Shown here: positions 559 to 4,643 of the stretch, in pieces
Position numbering within the stretch: position 1 is the first letter of the stretch
Layout of the letters: each line of letters starts with the position of its first letter
NCBI GenBank assembly: GCA_025058535.1
Contig: JANXEL010000069.1
Coordinates: 1 to 64,000, forward strand
Source of the DNA: Ignisphaera sp.
GTDB lineage: Archaea; Thermoproteota; Thermoprotei_A; Sulfolobales; Ignisphaeraceae
DNA: 64,000 nucleotides
Reading direction: 5' to 3'
Notes under the pieces: generated by a model
What the model saw: only the letters and a program-made list of their open reading frames with translations
The model's database searches: none
Told to the model about the DNA's origin: nothing
Position numbers and translations under genes: made by a program

Positions 559-1614
559 CTAATTCTCTAGCGGATCTATATAAATAAACACAGGATTTTC
601 ATAGGGATACACTCTAGCAACGCATTCACCCTGACCACTTAATTTAGCTGCTCTGTAAATTCCTCTTCTCGATAGATTTAGGTATCGCGCCATTCTATTC
701 CAGTACCCATGAGATTGGGAGGCCATAGCTAATAGAACGGCAGAGCTGTTGGTAACAGCATCAACATGCATACCAACATCATCTATACTCTGTGTAGCCA
801 TAAAAAAGGAAATGCCGCAGCCTCTTGAATAACGTGTTAAAATCTGGGTAAGCCCATCCATTATATGTGGAGCGGCATGCCACAGTTCATCTACTACTAT
901 AATCCTTTGAGGAATACCAGAGAACGACAAACCACAGTTTCTCAATATGCTATCCACTACGTAGTATATTACAAAACTGCTTAAGGTGGAGCTTTTAAGG
1001 AACACATCCTTCAATTCGATAATGGTATTAGCGTTCAATATGCTTTTCATAGGGTCCGAGTCTTTAGTGGGGTATATTTCGAAAATCTTTGCAATATCAT
1101 TTAATGCTTCAAGATTCTCAATAGTGTCGTATAGATGCTCAATCGATTCGCACTTACCACAGACATATTTCACACATTCATACAATGTTCTATACATTGT
1201 TGTAGAAATGCCGTACACTTTGGAAAAAACATTGAGAAACTCATTGACTTTCTGCTCAAATTCAGTCCTATTATCTTCACAAAAGCACAGAGGCAGTGGA
1301 GTCTTCAATGGATTGAATACATTTAAGTTCATACCATTAACTTTAAATAGATGATAGTACTCAGTTTTTACATCGAAAACTGTAATCTTTGATTTAAACT
1401 TCCTAACCATTCTATATGATAGGGTTGACAGTGCTACACTCTTTCCAGATCCACTCGGGCCAACAACAAATACATGCGATGTTATTGCAGAGCTGGGATC
1501 CCAATACACTTTAGAGCCGAAGTCCAAATCCATTCCTATATACACACCATCCACATTCTGAGCCCATGTGAATAGGTACAGTGCTGGATTCACGTACACT
1601 AGCGAATCTACCAA
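559..1614 (-). CDS. VirB4/HerA-type ATPase, C-terminal ATPase half of a split gene
   Basis: AAA+/RecA-fold ATPase of the HerA-FtsK-VirB4 superfamily, which pumps DNA or protein through membranes. Visible motifs: a lead-in resembling conjugative VirB4 and archaeal CedB (IGMDLDFGSKVYWDP, residues 26-40), Walker A GPSGSGKS (52-59), D-x-K-x-E-Y (81-85), Walker B IIVVDEL (238-244), an ATQS motif (273-276) and a possible arginine finger near R264. The ORF has only a weak TTG start; its frame stays open 12 codons further back, with the preceding stop TAA at 1654-1656, and overlaps the end of the upstream 196-codon ORF. Removing one T from the T5 run near 1645-1649 would fuse the two ORFs into a protein of about 560 residues, close to the size of CedB/VirB4-like proteins. 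ATPase family certain; role in DNA transfer inferred. Confidence 0.75.
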   Translation of the reverse strand: MVDSLVYVNPALYLFTWAQNVDGVYIGMDLDFGSKVYWDPSSAITSHVFVVGPSGSGKSVALSTLSYRMVRKFKSKITVFDVKTEYYHLFKVNGMNLNVFNPLKTPLPLCFCEDNRTEFEQKVNEFLNVFSKVYGISTTMYRTLYECVKYVCGKCESIEHLYDTIENLEALNDIAKIFEIYPTKDSDPMKSILNANTIIELKDVFLKSSTLSSFVIYYVVDSILRNCGLSFSGIPQRIIVVDELWHAAPHIMDGLTQILTRYSRGCGISFFMATQSIDDVGMHVDAVTNSSAVLLAMASQSHGYWNRMARYLNLSRRGIYRAAKLSGQGECVARVYPYENPVFIYIDPLEN

Positions 1615-1642
1615 AAACTTGCTGCTTCTAGGTCTAGCTGCA

Positions 1643-2233
1643 TCAAAAATTGATTATTTGACGAGCTTTCATGGGATCCGTTACTGGTGTTAGCACCACA
1701 TTCATCGAATTCTTAGCGCTGTATTCAATGTTGGTGAGCCTCTCTACATTAAATGAATCATCGCTACATATAAATGCAATGATGTTAGATACGTCTATAG
1801 GGATCATACCCTTTAGAATTCTACGTCTTATACCAATTAATTTTTCCACATAACCGCGTAACTTCGTATTAGATTTGTCTAGATCTAGCTCTACAAGCTT
1901 CATCTGTAGTTTACGATTAATCTCTGAAATATAGCTGTCTATGTTCACTGGCTGTAGAGAGAAGTAGGTGATGGTCCTGCACCCGGGTACTGAAAATAGG
2001 TTTAGGAAACGCTTCATATGATATACAGCATCTGTGTACTCTAGATCATTAACTGGGATACTACCGCCTGAGATTGTGTAGAGTGCAACAATGTTATCCA
2101 CACTACCAACTCTGCATCTAAATATTCCAGGCTTTATAGCACTACACTTATTATCTGCAGCAGGGTTTCTCACTACATAATTTAACACGGTATACTTAAG
2201 CCGATGAAGACCCATAGCCATACTTCTGAGCAC
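1643..2233 (-). CDS. N-terminal half of the split VirB4/CedB-like ATPase
   Basis: 196 codons from GTG; in-frame ATGs at 2221 and 2215 are the more likely starts. The stretch from about residue 95 to 160 (a helix with paired Leu/Arg, IGIRRRILKGMIPIDVSN, then a beta strand IIAFICSDD) resembles the region before Walker A in VirB4-like proteins. The ORF ends in IINF and TGA exactly where the downstream ATPase frame opens (a +1 shift in a T5 run). It overlaps the upstream 815-codon gene by 38 bp, so the three are translated as one operon. It could be a true frameshift (pseudogene), a programmed shift, two separate subunits, or an assembly error. Assignment as N-domain is inference from position and weak similarity. 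Confidence 0.55.
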   Translation of the reverse strand: MLRSMAMGLHRLKYTVLNYVVRNPAADNKCSAIKPGIFRCRVGSVDNIVALYTISGGSIPVNDLEYTDAVYHMKRFLNLFSVPGCRTITYFSLQPVNIDSYISEINRKLQMKLVELDLDKSNTKLRGYVEKLIGIRRRILKGMIPIDVSNIIAFICSDDSFNVERLTNIEYSAKNSMNVVLTPVTDPMKARQIINF

Positions 2234-4643
2234 TGCTTCTAATCCCCAGAAGTGTAGCTACTTTTAAAGCGATACGATGTGAATAAGCGATTACGTTCTT
2301 TAGTGGAACATTAATATACACAAACTTTATGCCGCTAGGTTCAATAACTATAAAGTTTGTGCATCCTTTAACAATATCATCTAAACTAAAAGGTAGTGTG
2401 AGTTTGAATGTTTTAGCAGGTTCTATACTATGAGGGGAGCTTGGTAAAATGAGGTACACAGGTAGATCAATGCATCTGTTAACAATTTTCACGCTCATCT
2501 TCAAACTATCATCGTAGTACAGATGCGCATCATTAAAATGTGCACATCTACTTGGAATCCTTACTTTAGGATAGAGTACTTTGCTAAAGTGCGCATCGAT
2601 TCCCTCCACGAACTCGATTGAGAACTTTTTATCATATTGAATCGGTATAGTAGTGACAGCCTCTTTTGATGAACCTAGAACAACCTCCACCAGGATTACA
2701 AGGATGTCCTTACATGCGCTAATGTCCACGCAGCCCTCGTTAGATCTAATCACTCTATCGCTACATACAACCTCAATGTTAGAGATCCTTACACTATTTC
2801 TTAAGGAGTGTGCATCCATACATACTTTCACACCATCACTCTCGAGGCTGCTAATTATCTTAACAATACTATCCAAATTGATTGAATCTATAGATAATGG
2901 TCTTATTGTCCATCCAATAATCACGTCGTGGAATCTCTCAACGATATATATCGAATCGTTTACTGATATCTTAATGTCTTTATCAAATTTAATAATACCA
3001 TCTCTGATGGTACCTTTGATTAACTCACCATCCTTAATCAGCAGCACCAGCCTTCCTTCCAGATCTGGAGATATATTTGGAATTAGAATTCTGCTGAAGG
3101 GTGTATTGATGACGTACACTTCAGGTAGGAGGATCTTGGAAGGTTTTCCACTATGAATTCTAATACCATTACTAGAATCAATGAAAACTCTGTGTTCCTT
3201 CAACAAACCTTGAATACATAGTGAAAATGTGGGTTTGTTGCTGTTAAACCTGCTATCCGCAGCAATACTGATAATGCTCTTTGATGAATCAACTCTGTAG
3301 ATATTGTAGGGGAGCTCTCTATAACCCTCAAATTTCAGCAGGTTGTAGGGAGCAGAATCTGTGATGGAAATACTGATAGTTGTAGGATCGTCACGTAGTA
3401 AGCGTGGGTGTTGGTTAATATAGAGATCAATGTATTTTAAATTTATGAAGACTAGCCTGCCAGCTCTATCTATGCAGGCTATAACGCCTTTCCCAATAGA
3501 CGAGCATCTGACTATGTATGAACGACTAGAAAGTGTTCTCTCTACATGGATACCGTTACCAGATTCGATAAAGAAGATATCTATGGTACCCCCTCTTAGT
3601 AGCACTATATAGTTATCCGATACATACCCTAAGGCTCTCTTTCTAGATGGTATTGATATAAGGGATAGTTCATTTAAGTCAAGAAGATAGAGATTTTCAG
3701 CGGTAGACAGCAGTACAAAATTTCTATAGGGATCCACTGATATGTTGTAGATGTCTTCCGGTCTAATGCATGCTAGGTAGCGTTCTTTCCCCTCATCTAC
3801 TGAGTAGAGAGCTAAGTAATTTCCCATGAATCCAAGCATGCTATTACTAGACAGCAGTGCTAGTGGTCTGAAACTACCATTTAATTCCATAGATTTGCAG
3901 AAACCACTGTCACAGTAGGCTACTATACCAATATTTGATAATTTTATGTAGGCAATATTTAAGTACAGATAGAAGACGGTTTCAAATGGTTCTAGGGCAT
4001 TTACATTCAATTTTACTGGGAACTCGATGCCATACACTCCATCAGATATCGTAATATAGGTGTCTGCATCGCTGAGGCATAGTAGGGCTTTATAGTGGCT
4101 GTGCTTAAGAGATAGTAAGGATTTGCATCGACCATACTCTAAAAAATCCGCATCACCATTTCTCATCACAGTCTTGTATATTACACGATCATTATTTAGA
4201 AATATCACACGATTATCAAATCCAACAGGGTATACATCTATTGGTGTGCTTGCTCTATCTACAGATCTCAATTCAAGACCTCTATCTATACAGCTTGAAA
4301 CTACGCCTAGAGGGATATTCATCGAGCTGATAATAATAGATGAAAAGGTATTGAGTGGATATGCCATGCAATCAATGCAGCCAAGTCTCAGAGGATCTAA
4401 CATATATTGATCCATAATCGTATTATAGGCATGCACCAACTCCTTGTATTTATAGATAAAAGGAGCTGAAGAAACAAATGGAAAACCATTGTAGCTGTAT
4501 ATAATTAATGGGTGTGAGAGTAGGTGTGCGCTCCTTAACCTTAAGAAAGCGGCTTTATGTGTTAAGTAACTGTATATGTATGTGTTGTAGGGATCTATAA
4601 CACCTTTTTTCAGCTCTAAAAACCGTATAGAATTTCCAGCCAT
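2196..4643 (-). CDS. Large uncharacterised protein with beta-propeller-like repeats, partner of the split ATPase
   Basis: 815 residues, not a family I recognise. Residues about 150-450 consist of short repeated beta-strand units of the type 'V-L-L-S-x(6)-L-Y-L-L-D-L' and 'G-V-I-A-C-I-D-R-A-G-R-L-V-F-I', typical of a beta-propeller. The rest is beta-rich. It has many cysteines (about 2.5%) and no signal peptide or clear transmembrane segment. First gene of the operon: its 3' end overlaps the ATPase N-half by 38 bp, which implies translational coupling and joint function. The divergent winged-helix gene starts about 100 bp upstream. A scaffold or sensor for a VirB4/HerA-type motor is an inference only. 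Confidence 0.6.
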   Translation of the reverse strand: MAGNSIRFLELKKGVIDPYNTYIYSYLTHKAAFLRLRSAHLLSHPLIIYSYNGFPFVSSAPFIYKYKELVHAYNTIMDQYMLDPLRLGCIDCMAYPLNTFSSIIISSMNIPLGVVSSCIDRGLELRSVDRASTPIDVYPVGFDNRVIFLNNDRVIYKTVMRNGDADFLEYGRCKSLLSLKHSHYKALLCLSDADTYITISDGVYGIEFPVKLNVNALEPFETVFYLYLNIAYIKLSNIGIVAYCDSGFCKSMELNGSFRPLALLSSNSMLGFMGNYLALYSVDEGKERYLACIRPEDIYNISVDPYRNFVLLSTAENLYLLDLNELSLISIPSRKRALGYVSDNYIVLLRGGTIDIFFIESGNGIHVERTLSSRSYIVRCSSIGKGVIACIDRAGRLVFINLKYIDLYINQHPRLLRDDPTTISISITDSAPYNLLKFEGYRELPYNIYRVDSSKSIISIAADSRFNSNKPTFSLCIQGLLKEHRVFIDSSNGIRIHSGKPSKILLPEVYVINTPFSRILIPNISPDLEGRLVLLIKDGELIKGTIRDGIIKFDKDIKISVNDSIYIVERFHDVIIGWTIRPLSIDSINLDSIVKIISSLESDGVKVCMDAHSLRNSVRISNIEVVCSDRVIRSNEGCVDISACKDILVILVEVVLGSSKEAVTTIPIQYDKKFSIEFVEGIDAHFSKVLYPKVRIPSRCAHFNDAHLYYDDSLKMSVKIVNRCIDLPVYLILPSSPHSIEPAKTFKLTLPFSLDDIVKGCTNFIVIEPSGIKFVYINVPLKNVIAYSHRIALKVATLLGIRSSAQKYGYGSSSA

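Follow-up and report, generated by a model that had tools for sequence, protein, structure and literature searches.

The cedB-like gene of Ignisphaera sp. analyzed in this study is divided between two ORFs, and comparative sequence evidence indicates that these very probably form one gene, which is read through by programmed +1 ribosomal frameshifting. The two ORFs lie adjacent to each other in different frames on the minus strand at 559-2233 of the window, a stretch of 64,000 nt that forms the start of contig 73 in a draft genome of 1.72 Mb and 103 contigs. The same break was found at the same slippery codon in all close relatives examined; therefore, the motor protein is probably made by a slip of the ribosome.

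The upstream, 0-frame ORF (2233-1643, minus strand) encodes 196 aa from a GTG at 2233, with an ATG at 2221 as the other possible start, and profile and structure matches identified it as the N-domain of a CedB-like motor with the VirB4 N-domain fold. It terminates with ..CAA ATA ATC AAT TTT TGA, in which the UGA directly follows the putative slip site. The downstream ORF (1614-559, minus strand; 351 aa from a TTG) encodes the ATPase and is in the +1 frame of the N-domain ORF. A sequence-only reading of this DNA had described a split ATPase whose frame runs back into the tail of the upstream ORF, and both points proved correct: the frame is open from 1653, begins TCA ATT TTT GAT GCA.. just ahead of the 0-frame stop and shares only 11 nt (TCAATTTTTGA) with the upstream frame. 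It was also confirmed on the window sequence that omission of one T joins ..IINF to DAARPR. The candidate slip site, 5'-AAU UUU UGA U-3' in 0-frame codons, occupies 1642-1651 on the minus strand, with the P-site UUU at 1648-1646, the A-site UGA at 1645-1643 and the next +1 codon, GAU, at 1644-1642. Counted from the slip, the +1-frame ATPase ORF (559-1644, minus strand) comprises 361 aa with a stop at 561-559, and its P-loop, GPSGSGKS, lies 61 codons past the slip.

Homologues were searched in 60 relatives, 214 genomes of the order and 229 genomes of the class. In these sets, f1 is the window's own family, f4 a second family with a split gene and f2 a third family with the gene in frame; f11 is taken here to be the Sulfolobaceae, and G055 to be S. 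acidocaldarius. The cedB-like gene was present in 17 of the 18 f1 genomes and split in 17/17, with one locus (L072 of G013) partial at a contig end and no cedB match in G015. In f4, the gene was present in 4/6 genomes and split in 4/4; the other two, G057 and G060 (76% and 63% complete), yielded paralogues only. In all 21 f1/f4 homologues, including that of the finished Ignisphaera aggregans chromosome (G009, locus L004), the ATPase was in the +1 frame, and the two frames overlapped by 11-92 nt. The other families with a full-length match among the order and class genomes had a continuous frame of approximately 530-640 aa; the matches in G165 and G162 were fragments, and the short-frame f9 and f7 matches were weaker. 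A 413-aa frame in G214 was rejected as another split because it runs off a contig end, and the 391-aa f9 paralogues (L069) were rejected as CedB since, judged by eye, they look like a different HerA-like gene. An internal TAG was flagged in one f2 cedB match (G153:C5:69548-70672, minus strand), yet its longest ORF is 570 aa.

These comparisons bear directly on the possibility that the window holds a pseudogene or an assembly error, which might be suspected from the draft state of the genome (103 contigs) and from the T5 homopolymer. That explanation is extremely unlikely, given that 20 other genomes share the arrangement, finished I. aggregans included, and that the window and G008 both carry UUU_UGA although their proteins differ by 30%. 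A sequencing error, considered in the sequence-only reading, is refuted because 21 genomes share this +1 relation, among them finished I. aggregans, which was polished using Illumina reads and for which an error rate below 1 in 100,000 is given (PMC3035270). In the gene tree, f1, f4 and f2 were grouped together (support 91/93). The split genes fell into two clades (f1; f4 plus G012) with f2 placed between them without resolution, and a single change accounted for the split state in 12% of bootstraps. Within the 58-60 codons that follow the site, variation in the +1 frame was greatest at its third codon positions in 8/8 pairs compared, and this frame is constrained right up to the putative slip site.

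A site of the form [AAT or TTT]-TTT-YGN was present in the overlap of all 21 split loci, as UUU_CGN in 17 and as UUU_UGN in 4, and each overlap contained exactly one 0-frame TTT followed by YG. TTT-Y-G was the search criterion, and the conservation of those letters is therefore partly by construction; independent of it are the occurrence of one site in each overlap and the preceding codon, which was always AAT (16 loci) or TTT (5 loci). At a frequency of approximately 5e-4 per codon, the chance of TTT-YG in an overlap is 0.0015-0.015 per locus, uncorrected for kinship. The A-site codons were CGT (7), CGG (4), CGC (3), CGA (3), TGT (2) and TGA (2), and UUU was followed by C or U in 21/21 loci, so that the P-site codon is able to re-pair one base forward. 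The exact UUU_CGN found in 17/21 loci is absent from the window, where UUU_UGA stands as in G008. The T5 run had been read from the window as containing one extra T; the run is indeed there, but it represents the conserved AATTTTYG with C changed to T, and no T is extra relative to the close relatives. Slippage during transcription of the T run, which would give mixed mRNAs with the ATPase in frame in some, is very unlikely as the source of the motor: a T6 run is found in f4, G012 and the in-frame f2 genes, but the run is merely T4 in 12/21 split loci (AATTTTCG), and the CG or TG that follows would not be required.

No start codon of the downstream ORF is conserved, and its possible start positions vary among the 21 loci. 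In L004 of I. aggregans, the P-loop lies 64 codons past the site, and the +1 frame contains no ATG, GTG or TTG in that interval. Each of the remaining 20 loci has its first candidate start 0 to 44 codons past the site (66 in L049), four of these loci (L009, L014, L027 and L049) also have a start codon in the open +1 frame ahead of the site, and a Shine-Dalgarno-like match was seen at candidate ATPase starts in few loci only. The possible in-frame starts near the site in some split loci, such as the GTG at codon 0 in L023 and the ATG at codon 7 in L010, count against a slip. Together with the starts ahead of the site and the short overlap in 21/21 loci, they would fit two separate proteins from overlapping genes, with the ATPase translated either through termination-reinitiation or from an internal start that may be an unusual one, and the two parts assembled later. 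This alternative is nonetheless improbable: the L004 gene has no start before its P-loop, the start positions are not conserved, and the constancy of TTT-YG and its retention in in-frame genes would be left unexplained. The conserved +1-frame AUU was ruled out as a shared unusual start because 5/21 loci have TTT TTT there. The sequence-only reading had set separate intact genes in relatives against a split gene, and in form the relatives do encode two ORFs; however, their downstream ORFs have no conserved start and the slip site is shared. The programmed +1 shift, which was among its proposals, is thus the reading that the sites conserved in 21/21 loci support.

For programmed frameshifting, the following mechanism is proposed. 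Ribosomes would read the N-domain as far as AAU UUU, with tRNA-Phe in the P site, and would encounter a slow A-site codon, which is a rare CGN or UGY codon in the relatives and the stop UGA in the window. The anticodon of tRNA-Phe is GAA, with which UUC pairs better than UUU. During the pause, tRNA-Phe would re-pair one base forward, from UUU to UUC (UUU in the window), and the ATPase would then be translated in the +1 frame. The two predicted products would share an N-terminus, one being a VirB4-like N-domain of approximately 200 aa and the other a full-length CedB of approximately 540-575 aa. We infer such a slip, as well as how efficiently it would occur and what the short protein might do; perhaps this protein sets how many motor subunits are made per non-motor subunit.

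Codon rarity was used as a stand-in for slowness at the A site. Among the 43 window ORFs (15,747 codons), CGC, CGG, CGA, CGT and TGT were among the eight rarest sense codons, with CGN at 9.9 per 1000 vs AGR at 48.4 per 1000; in I. aggregans, CGN occurred at 5.1 per 1000. A result against the slip is that TTT CGN was not depleted in I. aggregans (16 seen vs 14.2 expected in 303 ORFs of 400 kb); either the dicodon by itself is probably not very prone to shifting, or the wider context matters. TTT TGY was seen 13 times in the same 400 kb vs 23.8 expected. Pseudoknot-free folds of the 111 nt downstream of the site in 14 of the 21 loci were not unusual (z -2.3 to +1.1), which is a further point against the slip. 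ORF pairs joined at TTT-YG are rare, with one further candidate in 400 kb of G009 plus the window. In that candidate (L117, near 8230 on the minus strand in I. aggregans), TTT CGT precedes the 0-frame stop by 11 codons and the +1 ORF has 161 codons; a start codon lies 4 codons after the site, and the pair is therefore perhaps an ordinary overlap.

The sequence-only reading had assigned the two halves to the VirB4/CedB family as N-domain and ATPase, and this assignment was sustained. The ATPase half of the window matched DUF87/HerA in Pfam, and its best NCBIfam match was CedB (NF041017; 128.7 bits, positions 251-588 of 590). The upstream half had no family match in Pfam or NCBIfam. The alignment with intact CedB proteins that had been suggested as a check was carried out: a 15-row profile of the N-domain half matched the N-halves of six in-frame CedB of Sulfolobaceae with a probability of 98.3 and those of six in-frame f2 CedB with a probability of 99.5, the latter match reaching the Phe at the junction. 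Moreover, an AlphaFold model of the N-domain half (27 rows; pLDDT 88.1) was compared with the PDB by Foldseek, and the top 8 matches were all VirB4 (TrwK, R388) with a probability of 1.00, the best E being a modest 1.4e-3 (TMq 0.56). VIA-align of the model with VirB4 gave a Z of 8.3 over 149 residues at 4.2 A, which barely exceeds the unrelated rows at Z 6-7 that span approximately 50 residues. The frame-joined homologue of G005 (L006) consisted of a VirB4-like N-domain followed by the P-loop ATPase, and it was collinear with the CedB profile over positions 122-587 of 590 at 160 bits. From the profile matches, the VirB4 fold and the CedB match, it follows that the two halves are one VirB4-type motor cut at the border between N-domain and ATPase. 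The curated NCBIfam cut-off for CedB is 700 bits, and it was reached by neither the window ATPase half nor joined L006; the gene is therefore called CedB-like. The Sulfolobaceae gene L021 scored 822.7 bits against the same profile.

The CedB-like motor would presumably serve DNA transfer with CedA and CedA1. As in the CedB of the crenarchaeal Ced DNA-import system, an N-domain is combined with a HerA/VirB4 ATPase, collinear once joined, and CedA and CedA1-like genes are present in the same genome as the split cedB; unlike here, known CedB is one continuous ORF, and joined L006 scored well short of the CedB cut-off. In this genome (G000), a CedA-like ORF lies on contig 36 (5633-6441, minus strand). 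At 486 aa it exceeds the 259 positions of the CedA model, and it matched at 120.5 bits, below the curated cut-off of 330; it is adjoined by a small CedA1-like ORF (99 aa frame), on a contig other than that of cedB. Of the 17 f1 genomes with a split gene, 16 have a CedA homologue (E <= 0.001, below the curated cut-off), mostly with an adjoining CedA1-like ORF; the exception is G012. Such retention makes a dead CedB unlikely. The disabled motor that the sequence-only reading had entertained is disfavored by this pair, by the intact catalytic motifs of the ATPase half and by the constraint on the +1 frame.

The site is also retained in relatives whose gene is in frame. Phe-Phe-Arg was found at the junction in 14 of 21 readable f2 genes (8 genera), coded TTT TTT CGN in 14/14; the seven genes without it belonged to g59 (six) and g64 (one). 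In the pooled usage of f2 genes, TTT accounted for 44% and CGN for 26%, and TTT TTT CGN is therefore expected in approximately 5% per gene. The other invariant f2 Phe column was TTC in 11/14, the other invariant Arg columns were mostly AGR, and a second Phe-Phe-Arg elsewhere in L060 was coded TTC TTC AGA. Among the Sulfolobaceae, the site was present in 6/30 loci, coded TTT TTT CGN in 6/6 (L057, L134, L143, L144, L147 and L148), and absent from 24/30; it was also absent from f9 (0/14), f3 (0/3), f10 (0/2), f13 (0/3) and f14 (0/1). The loci of f2 (7/21) and of the Sulfolobaceae that lack the site count against the proposal. In the in-frame genes, a +1 slip would terminate 1-15 codons further on and, on the predicted reading, would give an N-domain-only protein. 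It is conceivable, at somewhat less than even chances, that an ancient +1 site at the junction of the CedB N-domain and ATPase was kept because two products, the N-domain alone and the full motor, are needed by the cell, and that the ATPase frame was swapped while the site stayed. The shift would then give the motor in f1 and f4, whereas the motor of f2 and of some Sulfolobaceae would come from the 0 frame and the shift would give a short form, as in PA-X. At approximately 65 codons before the P-loop, the in-frame junction of two f11 loci reads TTT TTC GAA / TTT TTC GAC (L142 of G196 and L146 of G200), and related f11 loci read TTT TTT CGT (L143, L144 and L147) or TTT TTT CAT (L145). The L142/L146 junction looks as though the shifted reading had become the in-frame one, with a compensating change close by.

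In bacterial prfB and eukaryotic antizyme, a +1 shift takes place at a UGA stop. The UUU_UGA of the window and G008 resembles them as a putative slip at a stop codon that is read slowly, but neither a pseudoknot nor a Shine-Dalgarno element upstream was noticed here, and the gene and its regulation are unrelated. UUU_CGN is a +1 motif demonstrated for influenza PA-X and suggested for plant amalgaviruses, its CGN being described as a rare Arg codon; sites of the PA-X type are weak (approximately 1-2% in reticulocyte lysate) (PMC5052127). This weakness counts against the proposal. Influenza A PA-X, the plant amalgaviruses and the archaeal site share a P-site UUU, a rare A-site CGN and the +1 direction, and no RNA stimulator is obvious, for the archaeal site as judged from the downstream folds of 14 loci. 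The former are systems of eukaryotic viruses, whereas the present genes are archaeal cellular genes, and the PA-X shift leads to a short product, whereas that in f1/f4 cedB would lead to a long one.

In archaea, one programmed frameshift has been proven, namely a -1 shift at A_AAA_AAT in fucA1 of Saccharolobus solfataricus, in two strains of one species; suggested cases include haloarchaeal viruses (one +1) and a Mg-chelatase gene (PMC8211752). Like fucA1, cedB is an archaeal cellular gene in two ORFs within the Sulfolobales, but the fucA1 shift is -1 in one species, whereas the cedB site is +1 and conserved across two families. An archaeal +1 shift has merely been suggested, for a haloarchaeal virus (PMC8211752, PMC5009743). 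The GeneTack survey predicted 7,390 frame transitions in Crenarchaeota, and its relevant passages name neither Ignisphaera nor HerA. In the open-licence literature searched on CedB, DNA import and archaeal or Thermoproteota programmed frameshifting, no report of a cedB frameshift was found, and a term search of two CedB papers found neither 'frameshift' nor 'Ignisphaera'. Within the literature searched, a programmed +1 slip thus probably has no precedent among archaeal cellular genes. If true, the conservation of a +1 site in two families of archaea would make cedB the first deep case among their cellular genes, the same UUU_CGN solution would have been reached by eukaryotic viruses and archaea, and archaeal +1 recoding would be testable in cultured Sulfolobales. 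A further prediction is that a type IV secretion-like motor has a hidden subunit consisting of the N-domain alone, and annotation would miss such split genes or turn them into pseudogenes.

Upstream of the N-domain ORF in the window lies an 815-aa ORF (2196-4643, minus strand) that overlaps its start by approximately 38 nt; it had no Pfam or NCBIfam match, and its homologues upstream of cedB make it a conserved neighbor in the genus. A homologue precedes cedB in 8 of the 13 loci searched, all in f1, at 59% in G008 and approximately 24% in I. aggregans. In the same 8 loci, rpl15e is convergent on the other side of cedB.
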